Below are positions 22,845 through 28,895 of a DNA stretch of 64,000 bases, piece after piece. Source of the stretch: Bacteroidota bacterium (GTDB lineage Bacteria; Bacteroidota; Bacteroidia; Chitinophagales; Saprospiraceae); NCBI GenBank assembly GCA_017858735.1, contig JAFMBH010000009.1:1-64000 (forward strand). Direction: 5' to 3'. Both the position numbers and the translations under genes were made by a program. Under the pieces are notes generated by a model, which searched no databases, had not been told where the DNA came from, and saw only the letters and a program-made list of their open reading frames with translations. Position 1 is the first letter of the stretch. Every line of letters begins with the position of its first letter.

Positions 22845-23258
22845 ATGAAAGATATTTTTGATTTATTGGGACGAATTTTTATTTCCTTTATTTTCTTTTT
22901 TGAGGCTTATGATGCTTTATTTTTTTTCAAGGATACAAAAAATCAGATGACCGAATATGGTCTTTTGTGGCAACAGGACTTCTTGCTTTATTTGTCTATT
23001 TTTGTTCTCATTTTAGGCAGCCTTTTAATCCTGTTGGGTTATAGACCGTCTTTCGGAGCTATTCTTATCCTTTTGTATTGGTTGCCAATGACTTTTATTG
23101 TCTTTCCGTTTTGGGAAGCAGAAAATGAGGTGAGAAGAGAAGTATCGGTGCATTTTATGAAGAATATGGCCATTTCCGGAGGCTTGTTCCTCGTTCTGGT
23201 AAATGGTGCAGGAAGGTGGAGTATGCGCAGACTCTTTGCAACAAGTTATGTTCGCTAA
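22845..23258 (+). CDS. DoxX-like four-helix membrane protein
   Basis: A 137-aa inner-membrane protein with four predicted helices: near 8-26 (GRIFISFIFFFEAYDALFF), 47-66 (LLYLSIFVLILGSLLILLG), 70-90 (FGAILILLYWLPMTFIVFPF) and 109-125 (MAISGGLFLVLVNGAG). FEAYD in helix 1, LGYRPSFGAILLL-type loop, and the 'HFMKNMAISGGLFLV' segment fit the DoxX/TQO_small family. Coupling to the upstream flavoprotein suggests an electron-transfer role, but this is unproven. No catalytic residues are obvious. Confidence 0.75.
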   Translation: MKDIFDLLGRIFISFIFFFEAYDALFFFKDTKNQMTEYGLLWQQDFLLYLSIFVLILGSLLILLGYRPSFGAILILLYWLPMTFIVFPFWEAENEVRREVSVHFMKNMAISGGLFLVLVNGAGRWSMRRLFATSYVR

Positions 23259-23297: not shown

Positions 23298-24059
23298 GTG
23301 ATTCAAGCAGTTATTGTTGAAGATGAGCTGAGTAGTCGCAATAATCTAAAGAATTTATTGGCTCAGTACGCAAAGGATATTGAAATTGTAGGTGAAGCTG
23401 AAAGTATTGACGACGCCGTAATTACTTTTAAAGGGCTTTCAAAACAACCCGATGTAGCTTTTTTAGATATTAATCTTTCCGATGGATTGGTTTTTAGTTT
23501 ATTGAATAAACTCAGACCTTTCCAATTCGAAATTATTTTTGTCACCGCATTCGAAGAATATGCAGTGAAAGCTTGTGAATATAGCTCTATCGGTTATATA
23601 TTGAAGCCTATAGATCCCGATGCCTTGAAAGAAGCAATAGATCGGATTCCTAAAAATGGAAAAAATCAGATTGAAAAAAGACTGGAGATTTTTAATAGCC
23701 ATTATAATAATCCTAATGTTTTTTCGAAAATGAGTATCGCCGCCGTTGATGGTATTTATTTTGTCAATATCACAGATATTATCCGATTTGAAGCAGAAGA
23801 TAATTATACCCATATTTTCTTGCAAACAGGGGAGAAGATAACAGCGTCAAAAACCATCAAAGCCTACGAGGAATTATTAGCTTCTTATAATTTCTACAGA
23901 GTACACAAAAGACATGTGATAAACCTTAATTGTATGAAAAAATACCTGAAGGGCGATGGGAATATTGTTATTATGGAAGATGATACCCATATTGAGGTTT
24001 CAAGAAGGAGAAGGGCGTCATTTCTTGAAAAATTAAGAGACCTGCAGGAAGGCAATTAA
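23298..24059 (+). CDS. LytTR-type response regulator of the peptide cassette
   Basis: A 253-aa regulator. The receiver domain (residues 2-115) has VIVEDE, the phosphoacceptor Asp57 in DVAFLDINLSDG, Thr83 in FVTAFEEYAVKA and Lys103 in YILKPIDPDAL. A LytTR DNA-binding domain (about 145-245) shows IIRFEAEDNYTHIFL, KAYEELLASYNFYRVHKRHVI (shown as FYRVHKRHVINLN) and SRRRRASFLEKL. The start codon is GTG, overlapping the stop of a three-codon ATG-AAA-AGG-TGA frame. It lies next to a GG-leader peptide gene (75 bp downstream) and a LytS-type kinase, its likely partner. Confidence 0.92.
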   Translation: MIQAVIVEDELSSRNNLKNLLAQYAKDIEIVGEAESIDDAVITFKGLSKQPDVAFLDINLSDGLVFSLLNKLRPFQFEIIFVTAFEEYAVKACEYSSIGYILKPIDPDALKEAIDRIPKNGKNQIEKRLEIFNSHYNNPNVFSKMSIAAVDGIYFVNITDIIRFEAEDNYTHIFLQTGEKITASKTIKAYEELLASYNFYRVHKRHVINLNCMKKYLKGDGNIVIMEDDTHIEVSRRRRASFLEKLRDLQEGN

Positions 24060-24075
24060 AATGTAATGCATTTCT

Positions 24076-24106
24076 TTTGAAATATTGTTTTTTTTCATTA
24101 ATTTTG
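24076..24106 (+). promoter_or_regulatory. Near-consensus Bacteroidota promoter of the GG-leader peptide gene
   Basis: TTTG at 24076-24079, a 19-bp spacer, and TAATTTTG at 24099-24106 match the TTTG-N19-TAnnTTTG consensus exactly. Transcription would start near 24113, giving a leader of about 22 nt. An ATTTC-TTTT-GAAAT inverted repeat (24070-24083) covers the -33 element and could be an operator. Confidence 0.7.
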
Positions 24107-24134
24107 CCATACTACATTTTAATTTTTATAAACT

Positions 24135-24275
24135 ATGAGAAAAAAAGAACTAAAATTAGAGGAGCTTCAAAAAAAATTAAAGGTCGTGAAAAATCAGGAT
24201 CTTAAAAAAGTGACGGGCGGCAAACAATCTGGCGGCTCGTGGAATAACGGTTGTGGAGGTATCATTCCCCTATGA
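24135..24275 (+). CDS. 46-aa double-glycine-leader peptide (RiPP, bacteriocin or pheromone precursor-like)
   Basis: An ATG frame encoding 46 aa. The leader starts MRKKELKLEELQKKLKVV and runs NQDLKKVTGG, with Gly-Gly at residues 28-29. The core is KQSGGSWNNGCGGIIPL (17 aa) with one Cys and six Gly. A charged amphipathic leader of this form ('LSREELKKVxGG') is known from ComC/Blp-type bacteriocin and pheromone leaders and from natural-product precursors of Bacteroidota, cut after GG by C39-peptidase transporters. The gene sits between a near-perfect promoter and a strong terminator and between the genes of a two-component pair. No exporter or modifying enzyme lies nearby. Processing, modification and target are unknown. 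Confidence 0.75.
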   Translation: MRKKELKLEELQKKLKVVKNQDLKKVTGGKQSGGSWNNGCGGIIPL

Positions 24276-24297
24276 TTTTATTCTAACTTTCTTCAAA

Positions 24298-24331
24298 GGG
24301 CTGTAATTAATTTTAATTACAGCCCTTTTTA
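24298..24331 (+). terminator. Strong intrinsic terminator of the peptide gene
   Basis: GGGCTGTAATTAA followed by TT and its exact complement TTAATTACAGCCC, then TTTTTA. The 12-13 bp stem is perfect. It ends 22 bp before the kinase start codon, so it separates a short monocistronic peptide mRNA from the kinase gene and may allow limited read-through. Confidence 0.9.
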
Positions 24332-24352
24332 TTTACCTTTTAATTGCAGAAA

Positions 24353-26272
24353 ATGGATCATTCGCTCTTACATCTGCCTTCAAGTGATAAGATTATTTCG
24401 TCCATCACTCAATGCAGAAACCTGGAGGAAAAGTACGGTTTACTAGATAAGCTTTTATCTCAATTAGTATATACTGATGTTAATCAGGCAGTTAAATATG
24501 TTGAAAAATTAAAAAAAATTAATAGTTTTGATCTGGAGTCAAAAGTCAACCTTTCCTATTATTGGTATAAAGCATTGATAGATAATCAGAAATATCAATA
24601 TAAAAAAGCTTACGATAATTTTTTAAAAGCCGTTAAACTGTCCGAAGAAAGTACTAATCTTCAGGTAAAAGCCGCGTTATTTATAGATCTTGCGGGTACT
24701 TCCATTAATTTACATAAAATGGATGAGGCTGAGCTGCTGATTGAAAAGGCAAAAAAATGTCTGAAGAAAAATCCCTCGCCCGTCTTAAACGCAAGAATAA
24801 TTAGTAGAGAGGCTTTTGTTCAATTGCACTATGCCAACTATCCCCGAGCCATTGAAGGCTTTTTAAAGGCCGAAAAAATCATTAGGAATCTGTCAAATAA
24901 TGAAATAACCCATAAAGATTTATTCTTCCTGCAAATTATTCAAGCTGGCCTGGGCAATCTGTATGAAATAATTGGCGACGCCGATAAAAGCATTGCTGCC
25001 TATCAAAATGCCATTGAACTGGCAGAATTATCAGATATTAAAACACGATTATCCTGGTTATGCCTTTTTGTAGGCAAAGGTTATCTGGTACTTTCAAATC
25101 TGGAGCGCGCCACCTTGTTTTTTCAAAAAGTACTTCACATTGAAAATGATGATAACGCTTTTTCCCGGGCCAGCGCTTATGCTAATCTTGGTTACGTTCA
25201 TCTTTTACAAAATGATTTTCCGGAGGCTCAACTTCTTTTAAATAAAGCGGAGGAGCTCTTTACTAATATAGGGGAGAAGGATTCTGAAAATTTGGTTTCC
25301 ATTGAAATATGGCGCGCGCAAATGGCTATGAAAAGCAATGATTTTAAAAAAGCAGAATTTTATTTGCTTCATGCTTATAGAATGGCCTCAAAATCGGCTA
25401 ATGTTAAAAGATTATCTTTTATTTGTAAAGAATTGGCGACTTATTATGCGGAGAATGAGCAATTTAAATTAGCCTACACTTATGAGAAGCTTCATGCCGA
25501 TTTGTCTGCCAAGTATGTGGAGGAACTCAATCAGCACAAAATATGGGAGTTAGAGGCTAAATATGATTTTGAACGAAGAAAGCAGGAAGCTGAATTACTT
25601 ATTTTACAAGCTAATAGGTTGCAGTTGAAAGCTTTACGTGCGCAAATGAACCCTCATTTTCTTTACAATGCCTTAAATAGTATACAAAATTATATTACCT
25701 CAAATGATATGACTCATGCAGCAAAATATTTAGCCAAATTTGCAAAGTTGATGAGGCAAAGTCTTGAATACTCCGATGTTGAGGTCATCAGCCTGGAAAA
25801 AGAAATAGCGTTTTTAGAGAATTACCTTTTCATTAATGAAAAATTGAGATTTGCAGATAGAATGTCTTACCGGATAAAAGTGGATGATGATATTGAAGAA
25901 GATTTGATAGGCGTTCCCGCAATGATTGTTCAGCCTTATCTTGAAAATGCCATTGAACACGGACTCAGATCTAAAAAAGAGGGTCTTTTAGCCGTTCAAT
26001 TTCTATCTTTTAATGAACAATGTATTTTGTGTATTATTGAAGATAATGGGGTAGGAAGAGATAAAGCTATGGCCTTACAAAGAGAAAATTTCAAATATCA
26101 ACACCATAAGTCAAAGGGTACCTTGATTACAGAACAAAGACTTCGGCTACTCCACAAATCTTTAGGCGCTCAACCCGCGGTGAAAATAATAGATTTGAAA
26201 GACCCACTGACCGGTGAAGCCACAGGAACAAGGGTAGAGGTGCTTATTCCCATAATGGAACTGGACAGGTAG
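24353..26272 (+). CDS. Cytoplasmic TPR sensor histidine kinase (LytS/His_kinase family)
   Basis: 639 aa from the ATG at 24353; a TTG nine bases upstream is also in frame. Residues ~30-380 are a long array of about seven TPR-like helix pairs (for example YKKAYDNFLKAVKLSEES and DADKSIAAYQNAIELAELS). A coiled coil (~385-430) leads straight into AQMNPHFLYNALNSIQNYI, with phosphoacceptor His435. The N box is QPYLENAIEHG (Asn532) and the G box EDNGVGR (565-568). No signal peptide or transmembrane helix is visible, unlike most Bacteroidota TPR kinases of this type, which carry one before the coiled coil. It probably phosphorylates the LytTR regulator. A TPR array can bind peptides. Confidence 0.88.
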   Translation: MDHSLLHLPSSDKIISSITQCRNLEEKYGLLDKLLSQLVYTDVNQAVKYVEKLKKINSFDLESKVNLSYYWYKALIDNQKYQYKKAYDNFLKAVKLSEESTNLQVKAALFIDLAGTSINLHKMDEAELLIEKAKKCLKKNPSPVLNARIISREAFVQLHYANYPRAIEGFLKAEKIIRNLSNNEITHKDLFFLQIIQAGLGNLYEIIGDADKSIAAYQNAIELAELSDIKTRLSWLCLFVGKGYLVLSNLERATLFFQKVLHIENDDNAFSRASAYANLGYVHLLQNDFPEAQLLLNKAEELFTNIGEKDSENLVSIEIWRAQMAMKSNDFKKAEFYLLHAYRMASKSANVKRLSFICKELATYYAENEQFKLAYTYEKLHADLSAKYVEELNQHKIWELEAKYDFERRKQEAELLILQANRLQLKALRAQMNPHFLYNALNSIQNYITSNDMTHAAKYLAKFAKLMRQSLEYSDVEVISLEKEIAFLENYLFINEKLRFADRMSYRIKVDDDIEEDLIGVPAMIVQPYLENAIEHGLRSKKEGLLAVQFLSFNEQCILCIIEDNGVGRDKAMALQRENFKYQHHKSKGTLITEQRLRLLHKSLGAQPAVKIIDLKDPLTGEATGTRVEVLIPIMELDR

Positions 26273-26433: not shown

Positions 26434-26499
26434 AGTTTTCTCATAGTATTTAATAGCTCCTGTGTGCATCGGTCTCCCCCGAACAGGAGCTATCTTTTT
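26434..26499 (+). ncRNA. Candidate ~65-nt small RNA or terminator hairpin with a C-rich loop
   Basis: ATAGCTCCTGT (26453-26463) pairs perfectly with ACAGGAGCTAT (26483-26493). Inside, TCGG pairs with CCGA around the loop TCTCCC. The hairpin is followed by CTTTTT on the plus strand. Its right arm overlaps the pbpC stop codon on the minus strand, where no T-run follows, so it is oriented for plus-strand transcription. It could also be only the distal terminator of the kinase transcript. Confidence 0.4.
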
Positions 26500-28895
26500 G
26501 AATAGCTCATAATTTCAAAAGTAGTTTCTATTCTATTCCCTTCTTCATCCATAGCCATCAAAAGGTGTCTTCCTATGCTTGGGTTCATGATCATTTGATG
26601 GTAAATGCGTGTTTTACCAATAAATACCCCATCTATATGCCAGTAAACTGTTTTTTCCGGACGTCGGTGTGCGAGTTGAAATACCGTTTTTGAGACAGAA
26701 CCATCCAAATTCTTAGGAATTTTTATTTGTGTAAACTCCCTTGGGTAAATCCATTCCATGGTTTCATTTTCATCAAAAGGAGTATTATTCTGAAGGCATA
26801 ATGGGTGCCAGTTTGGCAAGGGATGATAATCGGGATTATTTTTCCGGAAATAGAAGGCCTCCAAAGGAGGTAAAACTAATCGGTTTTCAGGTTTTCCCGC
26901 TTCATTTTCCAGGCAATTAACATTCACGAGATGTTGTTGATCGCTGGTTAAATAAACCTTTTTATGAAAGGGACAAACATCACTTGTTTTAATGGTTTTA
27001 GGAGCAAGGATAGTTTCTTGTGGGCAAAAAGGGCCCGCTAACCAACCGGAGGATTTACATATATCTACCGAATGTAAGTCGGCATTGGGAATGGGAAAAA
27101 GTTTGCCTTTTTCAGGTAACTCGTTAAACAGTGAAAAAAGCAAAGGTGCAGCGACTTTTATCCCTGTAAGGCCAGGTTTTCCTTCTCCGCTCGCATTTCC
27201 AACCCAAACGCCTACACAATAGGAGGTAGAAGTACCGATAGCCCATGCATCGCGAAAACCAAAACTGGTACCAGTTTTCCAGGCAATAGGCTGATTACCG
27301 GAGAATTGCTGCCAGTTTCCATCTTCATCTGGTCGCTTTAAGGCAATCATGGCCTGCCAGGTGCTATATATGGCGCCTGGTTGAATGACGGGAACTTGTC
27401 TGTCGGTCAAAGCCATTGCTTTATTTTTAGTATTTACATACCATGGCGAATGCCAGTTATAGTATTTTTCCGTTTCGTTTCCGGGGGTGTAAAACAGAAG
27501 GGATCGGGCCATAGAACTGTAAATGCCACATAGATCCCATAAATTAACTTCTGCCCCACCCAGAATCAAAGACAAGCCATAATGGTCGGCGGAAAATGGT
27601 AAGGAATGAATCCCCATTTTTTTTAATTGGTTATGGAATCGTCCTACATTATATTTTTTAAGTAACTGAACGAAAGGGATATTCAAAGACCTTATCAGTG
27701 CCTGATCAGCGGCTACCATTCCACTATAAGATTGATCAAAATTTGCTGGTCTGTAGCCCCGATAACTCAAAGGGACATCGCTTAACCAGGAGCCAGGCAG
27801 AATGAAACCTTCCTGAAGGCTTAAAGCATAAAGGAAGGGTTTCAAAATGCTTCCACTGCTGCGATTGGCCATAATTAGATCGACCTGCCTGCCATGACTC
27901 GATGCTTCATTTGGTGAATTTCCGAGATAGGCAAGGACTTTTCCACTGGAAACCTCAAGAACCAGAATAGCGGCATTTTCAATACCGTTAGCTGACAATT
28001 GATATTGATATTGCTGGAGTCTTTCCTGCATTCTCTCTTGGATATCAACGTCAAGCGTAGTAGGTACAATGCCACCACTATGTTGAGGGAATGTTCTGCT
28101 TAACAAATGATTAGCTAATTGGGGAAGAGGAAAAACTTCTTCAGGTAAAGGTTCTTCTCTGGCTAATTGCCATTTTTCATGGTCTATAATTTTCTTCTTA
28201 TAAAGGTTATCGAGTAATCTGTCTCTTTTATCCTTCAGCTTATCTCTATTTCTTCCGGGATGAATTAAACCCGGACTATTGGGTAAAACAGCTAATAAAC
28301 AAGCTTCTGACCAGGTGATTTGTGAAATATTTTTACCAAAGTATCGCCAGGCAGCAGCGTCAATGCCCACTACATTGCCACCAAAAGGAGCGTGAGCGGC
28401 ATACCAGTTTAAAATTTCTTTTTTAGAATAGGTTATTTCTAAGACAGACGCCAACACCAATTCTTTTATTTTTTGCCCGTAAGTTCTGGGTGGATTATCC
28501 AGTGACATGCGGATAACCTGCATGCTTAAGGTGCTTCCACCGCGTTTACGGCGGGGGTTGCCCGCATTGTATTTAAATGCGGAAGCGAGTGCAATAAGGT
28601 CAACACCTCGGTGGTAGTAAAATCTTTTATCTTCATATTCAACCAAGGCCACTGCGTACTTTTCTACTGCCTGACTTGAAGATGGAAACCTCCATTGCCC
28701 GTCTTTTGCAATTCTTGCGCTGAGAAGATGCCCATTTTTATCGGTTAAAACAGCGGCATAAGGAACCTTGAACAAGGGCCTGGGAAGAGATAGATAAATA
28801 TACATCAGCACAGCCCATCCCAATAGAATAAGTAATATTTGGGTGATATGCACCTGTTTTTCAGGAAAAGAAAGGGAAAATTTTCGTCGAATCAC
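26490..28895 (-). CDS. pbpC: Penicillin-binding protein 1C (bifunctional class A PBP)
   Basis: An 801-aa inner-membrane enzyme that polymerises glycan and cross-links peptidoglycan. After a single N-terminal anchor (LLILLGWAVLMYIYLSL) comes the GT51 transglycosylase domain with EYEDKRFYYHRGVDL and RGGSTLSMQVIRM. The transpeptidase domain follows with SSGSILKPFLYAL (SxxK), and AWKTGTSFGFRDAWAIG (KTG). The C-terminal BiPBP_C domain (~705-800, ending IETTFEIMSYS) is typical of PBP1C. It is transcribed alone, towards the kinase gene. The 1C subtype is supported by length and the C-terminal domain. Confidence 0.96.
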   Translation of the reverse strand: MIRRKFSLSFPEKQVHITQILLILLGWAVLMYIYLSLPRPLFKVPYAAVLTDKNGHLLSARIAKDGQWRFPSSSQAVEKYAVALVEYEDKRFYYHRGVDLIALASAFKYNAGNPRRKRGGSTLSMQVIRMSLDNPPRTYGQKIKELVLASVLEITYSKKEILNWYAAHAPFGGNVVGIDAAAWRYFGKNISQITWSEACLLAVLPNSPGLIHPGRNRDKLKDKRDRLLDNLYKKKIIDHEKWQLAREEPLPEEVFPLPQLANHLLSRTFPQHSGGIVPTTLDVDIQERMQERLQQYQYQLSANGIENAAILVLEVSSGKVLAYLGNSPNEASSHGRQVDLIMANRSSGSILKPFLYALSLQEGFILPGSWLSDVPLSYRGYRPANFDQSYSGMVAADQALIRSLNIPFVQLLKKYNVGRFHNQLKKMGIHSLPFSADHYGLSLILGGAEVNLWDLCGIYSSMARSLLFYTPGNETEKYYNWHSPWYVNTKNKAMALTDRQVPVIQPGAIYSTWQAMIALKRPDEDGNWQQFSGNQPIAWKTGTSFGFRDAWAIGTSTSYCVGVWVGNASGEGKPGLTGIKVAAPLLFSLFNELPEKGKLFPIPNADLHSVDICKSSGWLAGPFCPQETILAPKTIKTSDVCPFHKKVYLTSDQQHLVNVNCLENEAGKPENRLVLPPLEAFYFRKNNPDYHPLPNWHPLCLQNNTPFDENETMEWIYPREFTQIKIPKNLDGSVSKTVFQLAHRRPEKTVYWHIDGVFIGKTRIYHQMIMNPSIGRHLLMAMDEEGNRIETTFEIMSYSKR

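Follow-up and report, generated by a model that had tools for sequence, protein, structure and literature searches.

What does a 46-codon gene do between a response regulator and a histidine kinase in the genome of a Saprospiraceae bacterium? The question is raised by a window of 64,000 nucleotides, which is the whole stretch of DNA analysed here (Bacteroidota bacterium, assembly GCA_017858735.1, contig JAFMBH010000009.1, positions 1 to 64,000), in which a LytTR response regulator, the small gene and a LytS-type kinase with tetratricopeptide repeats (TPR) follow one another. The original prediction, made from the sequence of this window, regarded the trio as peptide signalling or a self-regulated bacteriocin of Bacteroidota. 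We found that the small gene belongs to a family of peptides with a double-glycine (GG) leader, which is present in 96 of the 102 Saprospiraceae genomes bearing the kinase. The peptide is probably exported, coupled to the two-component system and its signal, and we give a probability of about 0.5 to the reading that it is a short secreted signal peptide with a dedicated two-component system.

The coordinates and the Pfam matches agree with the arrangement as first described, with all three genes on the plus strand. The response regulator (23298-24059, 253 amino acids) passes the Pfam cut-offs of the Response_reg and LytTR models, with the receiver at residues 5-114 and the LytTR DNA-binding domain at residues 152-246. 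The peptide gene (24135-24275) encodes a 46-residue precursor, MRKKELKLEELQKKLKVVKNQDLKKVTGGKQSGGSWNNGCGGIIPL; the leader end LKKVTGG (leader 1-29) and the 17-residue core (30-46, KQSGGSWNNGCGGIIPL) were read from the open reading frame just as proposed. The kinase (24353-26272), without a visible membrane segment, passes the Pfam cut-offs of the His_kinase and TPR models. Pfam and AlphaFold2 place a TPR superhelix up to about 25453, followed by a coiled coil, the dimerization and histidine phosphotransfer (DHp) domain, whose likely phospho-acceptor histidine is at codon ~25655, and the ATPase domain. For the kinase, the ATG at 24353 is a more probable start than the TTG at 24344, since the Met at alignment position M4 hardly varies among the 71 kinases compared.

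Distribution of the cassette

We sampled 199 Saprospiraceae genomes (112 genera), and the peptide profile, built from 22 peptides found before kinases, was also applied to 149 order-level and 395 phylum-level genomes. A similar small gene preceded the kinase in 24 of the 30 kinase loci first read, and the profile matched 84 of the 199 genomes and 53 of the 112 genera. A genome was counted as kinase-bearing when the kinase matched with E < 1e-60, and the loci of these 102 genomes were read. The complete order of regulator, peptide and kinase was found in 69 of the 96 genomes with a peptide; 16 others had the peptide with the regulator and eight had it with the kinase (G068, G111 and G185 at a contig end), while in two it lay elsewhere and in one on a contig edge. 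When the order was broken, the peptide was thus mostly still beside one partner. In a genus with a strongly diverged regulator (39-40% identity), the peptide still adjoins the regulator. The conserved gene order and small open reading frame foreseen for relatives were therefore recovered.

Four of the peptides were counted as present by their position and C-terminus despite a weak score (G061, E 0.2; G079, 0.5; G169, 0.1; G197, 0.01), and a spurious weak match within a kinase gene (L145, E 0.5) was excluded. No peptide was detected in six of the 102 kinase genomes (G010, G026, G063, G131, G121 and G181), and in G121 and G181 the kinase was matched only in part. The profile matched seven of the 149 order-level and two of the 395 phylum-level genomes, all of them Saprospiraceae, so no peptide was found outside the family. 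Full-length relatives of the kinase outside Saprospiraceae were likewise not seen in the 198 order-level genomes searched with it; the best match outside the family had E 9.7e-55, and the matches covered mostly the catalytic half. Among the named carriers are Phaeodactylibacter xiamenensis KD52, Flavilitoribacter nigricans DSM 23189, a metagenome bin of Haliscomenobacter hydrossis and many Saprospiraceae bins.

Sequence of the peptide family

The C-terminus of the family follows the consensus W-N-N-G-C-G-G-I-x-P-Q. Met1 and both glycines were invariant in an alignment of 38 members, every one of which had been selected for having GG. We tallied 96 genomes, namely 95 of the 96 kinase-bearing peptide genomes plus G171, leaving out G187 with its cut peptide. 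GG was present in 94 of them, the exceptions being G079 and G169 of one genus, and the GG-type leader expected in relatives was thereby borne out. The penultimate residue was Pro in 91 of the 96, the end Pro-Gln occurred in 76, and Cys was among the last 12 residues in 71, hence Cys is not strictly needed. The net charge was positive in 86 of 94 cores. The core measured 13-28 residues after GG, with one correction by eye; the shortest tallied lengths (12) are artefacts, because a few rows, including that of the window, were split at a second GG. G046 (L105 3084-3655) has a tandem pair of distinct peptide genes between the regulator and the kinase; both peptides end in Pro-Gln, and their cores differ.

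When seven peptide genes from the genus of the window were compared in pairs, amino-acid changes numbered 0-2 and silent ones 0-5, and these few changes suggest purifying selection. An open reading frame that arose by chance, or a decayed gene without a product, would agree with the observation that no curated family model reaches its cut-off for the window peptide. However, the conservation across the family, the few amino-acid changes within the genus, and the promoter-like sequence and terminator described below all argue otherwise, and we regard this explanation as barely credible.

The window peptide was rejected as a member of any curated family for the same lack of a model over its cut-off. 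The 38 diverse members, scanned singly against curated models, gave weak and mixed matches, including TIGR01847 and LcnG-beta. One of ten members scanned passed TIGR01847 (16.9, cut-off 15.7), and the window peptide was below it at 12.5. The ComC precursor family NF033214 matched weakly in three of the 38 (best E 0.0062; the single score available, 14.0, is far under the cut-off of 50), and TIGR04149, of ribosomally synthesized and post-translationally modified peptides (RiPPs) modified by radical S-adenosylmethionine (radical-SAM) enzymes, in 11 of the 38 (best E 0.00023, 21.0 against 25); both assignments were rejected. The features of a C39 substrate, a short precursor and a hydrophobic-patterned leader ending in GG, were found in the peptide family.

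The C39 exporter

The genome of the window encodes exactly one C39 protein, of 729 amino acids with peptidase, membrane and ATPase parts and followed by an HlyD protein, on another contig; a C39 transporter had been looked for elsewhere in the genome and was found there with its partner. C39 proteins occurred in 83 of the 84 profile-positive genomes and in 42 of the 115 others. When counted by genus, they were present in all 53 profile-positive genera and in 24 of the 59 others, and 98 of the 102 kinase genomes had one, compared with 27 of the 97 without the kinase. Three of the four kinase genomes lacking C39 were also without a detected peptide (G010, G026 and G131), and in G010 the regulator abuts the kinase directly; this joint absence is suggestive only, because these are draft genomes.

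Exporter relatives more than 50% identical were common among the matches listed, and some peptide genomes, G092 and G105 among them, have distant ones only. The neighbourhood of the exporter appeared alike in G073 and G165. No copy of the peptide was found by the profile beside the exporter in 30 exporter loci. Several genomes contain extra peptides whose leaders are of this type but whose cores, PPP-containing or acidic, are unrelated, several of them in tandem (L241 2548-3147; L243 82-246; L244 2722-3320; L245 1923-2522). In the stretches read, these sit away from exporters. The joining of like leaders to unrelated cores fits an export leader.

The kinase sensor and a possible import path

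We found no clear membrane segment in 94 kinases by crude hydropathy, the highest 19-residue mean, 1.71, being in the ATPase domain; the kinase thus looks cytoplasmic, as had been proposed. In the AlphaFold2 model (mean predicted local distance difference test score, pLDDT, 90; predicted template modelling score, pTM, 0.72), the TPR superhelix extends as far as about residue 370 and is followed by a long coiled coil and then by a LytS-type kinase. Its sensor matched the peptide receptors NprR (Z 24.2), RapI and RapF-peptide (both Z 24.0) over 315-355 residues. According to PMC3601957, the groove is lined by A helices, and in RapF the backbone of the peptide is held by a conserved Asn in the groove. 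The alignment used with the structure comprised 71 of the 79 kinases kept under 80% identity. The A helices were more conserved, with a mean entropy of 1.84 bits compared with 2.18 bits for the B helices, and near-invariant Asn and Arg residues, among them N81, N122, R155, N281 and N316, lie on A helices.

A cytoplasmic sensor raises the matter of how an exported peptide might come back. The genome of the window has one SBP_bac_5 protein followed by two BPD_transp_1 permease genes (C138; L268 4005-8326). A protein with two ATP-binding cassette (ABC) ATPase stretches, of a kind used by peptide importers, is encoded about 3 kb before the sole C39 exporter (L033 4865-6337), on a different contig from the former genes. 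As importer-like genes are present, re-import of the peptide across the inner membrane is possible.

Promoter, terminator and upstream element

A Bacteroidota-type promoter-like sequence of the peptide gene was read by eye at 24076-24106 (+), with the -33 part TTTG at 24076-24079 and the -7 part TAATTTTG at 24099-24106, separated by a spacer of 19 nucleotides. TAnnTTT boxes are also found upstream of the peptides in relatives. After the gene there is an intrinsic terminator (24295-24328, +) with a 15-bp stem and a U run (-20.8 kcal/mol, z -7.48). Placed between this promoter-like sequence and a strong terminator, the peptide gene appears to form a unit of its own.

In relatives, an element like AATAAAAAWATGTR often precedes the peptide promoter. 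Its exact core AAAAWATGTR, on either strand, was present in 17 of 90 upstream regions and none of 90 downstream regions, which were often shorter than the upstream ones, and in 0-4 regions in 20 shuffles. With one mismatch it was found in 56 of the 90 upstream and 12 of the 90 downstream regions, and this result is less telling, because the shuffles gave 23-34. The element with up to three mismatches was 49-58 bp from the TAnnTTT box in 24 of 90 relatives, with a spacing peak at 53-56 for which no shuffle control was run. The composite element gave 17 rows in 904,150 bases (both strands counted; 33 named loci), of which ten (nine sites) were upstream of a peptide, five were at one conserved spot elsewhere and two were single. 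The element is, we infer, a putative binding site of the neighbouring response regulator. A conserved AT-rich stretch, CAATAATAATTAAAATATTTA, is present across the genus of the window (19199 in the window; near 3065 in L080, L082, L083, L084 and L086), and it was rejected as a peptide-promoter element, being a false match.

The genes around the cassette are a DoxX-like gene by Pfam (22845-23258, +), which precedes the regulator, and a gene convergent to the kinase (26490-28895, -) encoding a bifunctional, PBP1C-like penicillin-binding protein with a BiPBP_C end by Pfam. Judged by appearance, similar neighbours occur in several relatives.

Signal, output or intracellular partner

A system of four steps may be proposed. 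The 46-residue precursor would be made from its own promoter, in keeping with the promoter-like stretch and the terminator described above. The C39-peptidase ABC exporter with HlyD would recognise the GG leader, cut it and export the core, as the motif and the co-occurrence suggest. The TPR groove of the kinase would then recognise the conserved C-terminus of the mature, roughly 17-residue peptide or of the precursor; were the exported form the signal, it would first be re-imported by an oligopeptide-type ABC importer, for which genes of a similar kind are present. Finally, the kinase would alter the phosphorylation of the LytTR regulator, which may control the peptide promoter and other genes, as the gene order and the conserved upstream DNA element in relatives suggest. 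The complete form of this scheme, that is, Gram-negative quorum sensing in which a GG pheromone is exported by C39, re-imported and read by a Rap-like TPR domain fused to a histidine kinase, is put forward tentatively and is rather unlikely as a whole.

Several observations weigh against signalling through the kinase, among them a partial Mantel test on 74 genomes having a regulator, a kinase and a GG-split peptide (from 81, 94 and 88, respectively). Given the catalytic domain and the regulator, the core showed no relation to the TPR domain (r = 0.06, p = 0.27), and it tracked the regulator instead (r = 0.29, p = 0.003), as did the leader (r = 0.36, p = 0.003). The test gives direct sensing no support, and it is a weak test for so short a peptide. 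In the fold comparison, LGN (Z 27.3) scored above Rap and NprR, so the fold alone is no argument for peptide sensing; identity to these closest solved folds (LGN, NprR, RapI and RapF-peptide) is 11-18%. The fold in the model allows, but does not demonstrate, peptide sensing by the TPR domain. Membership of the RRNPP group, which the original prediction named as a parallel, is not established, as other TPR proteins share the resemblance in fold. Moreover, position 242 is occupied by Asn in 61 of 71 kinases but by Phe in that of the window.

Other such points concern the peptide, its exporter and its promoter. In G071 and G128 at least, among the 84 profile-positive genomes, the profile matches the leader alone, and the cores are different. 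The exporter gene is not adjacent to the peptide gene, 27 of the 97 kinase-less genomes have C39 proteins as well, and kinship in the co-occurrence was handled by the genus counts only. The upstream element shows its usual spacing in just 24 of 90 relatives and not in the window's own promoter, and it was not found before the exporter in flanks of about 1.5 kb (30 exporter loci and L033).

The tracking of the regulator by the core, rather than of the sensor domain, is what would be expected if the peptide were an output and not an input: an exported peptide under the control of the regulator, acting on other cells as a bacteriocin, a predation or a surface factor, with the kinase sensing another cytoplasmic cue. 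A regulated output would agree with the promoter-like sequence that the peptide has to itself and with the conserved element upstream of it in relatives, and bacteriocin GG leaders are similar, as seen in the weak TIGR01847 and LcnG-beta matches. Bacteroidetocins are peptide toxins of Bacteroidota according to PMC6671954, and PMC10352776 gives their predicted cut after the GG motif. However, the C-terminal end of the present peptide is conserved in dozens of genera, the core of 13-28 residues is very short, and the peptide stands beside the kinase without the regulator in eight of the 102 genomes (in three cases at a contig end). Arms-race toxins usually diversify. We consider the output explanation unlikely, although it deserves attention; of the two possibilities in the original prediction, signalling is favoured and the bacteriocin is the weaker because of the short core and the conserved C-terminus.

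The one genus that lacks GG in its leader (G079 and G169; L110 and L118) also speaks against an exported signal. Its peptide lies between the regulator and the kinase and keeps a C-terminal end like KWNSRCGDLLPH, and its genomes retain a C39 exporter 53% identical to that of the window genome. The loss of GG with retention of the C-terminus, the kinase that looks cytoplasmic and the leader that tracks the regulator would suit a small protein acting inside the cell as a feedback subunit on the kinase or the regulator, where the GG is of minor importance or export serves to clear it. Against this, GG is present in every other member listed, C39 accompanies nearly all profile-positive genomes (83 of 84), and like leaders on unrelated cores in several genomes are expected of an export leader. 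Such an intracellular role thus appears improbable, and a secreted signal peptide coupled to the two-component system is still the reading that we prefer.

Comparison with known systems

In streptococci, ComC/ComD/ComE and BlpC/BlpH/BlpR combine a peptide, a kinase and a regulator, and their kinases are receptors in the membrane, which encounter the peptide on the outside. The Saprospiraceae cassette is like them in the GG-leader precursor, the C39 exporter, the short basic core and the LytTR response regulator adjoining the peptide gene. On the other hand, its kinase looks soluble with a TPR sensor, its host has two membranes and its exporter is unlinked. No membrane-embedded receptor kinase of the ComDE type was found in the hydropathy of the 94 kinases, and the model is a soluble TPR and coiled-coil protein. 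GG peptides are reviewed in PMC7595303.

RRNPP receptors (Rap-Phr, NprR-NprX and PlcR-PapR) resemble the kinase in the cytoplasmic TPR superhelix, the conserved Asn on the helices lining the groove and the short peptide encoded nearby. RRNPP receptors are phosphatases or DNA-binding proteins, and their peptides are exported by other routes; here the TPR domain and a LytS-type kinase are fused in one protein, and the peptide is made with a GG leader. PMC7564271 places RRNPP systems in Gram-positive bacteria.

Among Bacteroidota, the bacteroidetocins and other GG-leader peptides, including TIGR04149, share the GG leader and the C39 exporter. They are toxins, or radical-SAM-modified products of biosynthetic clusters, whereas the peptide studied here has no modification enzyme beside its gene in the window, a short core, a conserved C-terminus and a steady linkage to a two-component system. 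The FimS-type TPR histidine kinases of Bacteroidota (NF053520) also combine a TPR sensor with a LytS-type kinase. FimS has membrane segments, but none were seen here, and the window kinase scores 35 against the cut-off of 600. Bacteroidales RiPP clusters, one of which has a kinase and a regulator but also radical-SAM enzymes and is without an exporter, do not have the same arrangement as the Saprospiraceae cassette, as PMC10352776 describes them.

Full-text literature searching returned no described system with exactly this arrangement, as had been supposed, and the titles and abstract openings that it gave mention neither such a Saprospiraceae cassette nor a GG peptide that has a TPR histidine kinase as its partner. 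Each part belongs to a known kind, and it is their combination that appears to be a new variant.

Peptide communication, familiar from Gram-positive bacteria, has rarely been shown in Gram-negative ones. Should the proposed scheme hold, a signal made in the ComC manner would here be read in the RRNPP manner. Provided that the kinase does read the peptide, sensing of peptides by TPR domains would also be known from histidine kinases and from Bacteroidota, and a candidate class of ligands would be available for other soluble TPR-LytS kinases. As the genes for signal, sensor and regulator are named in named strains, a synthetic peptide of some 17 residues would allow a direct test. According to PMC9304909, Saprospiraceae abound in wastewater treatment plants, and a group behaviour of these bacteria in such plants would carry practical weight.

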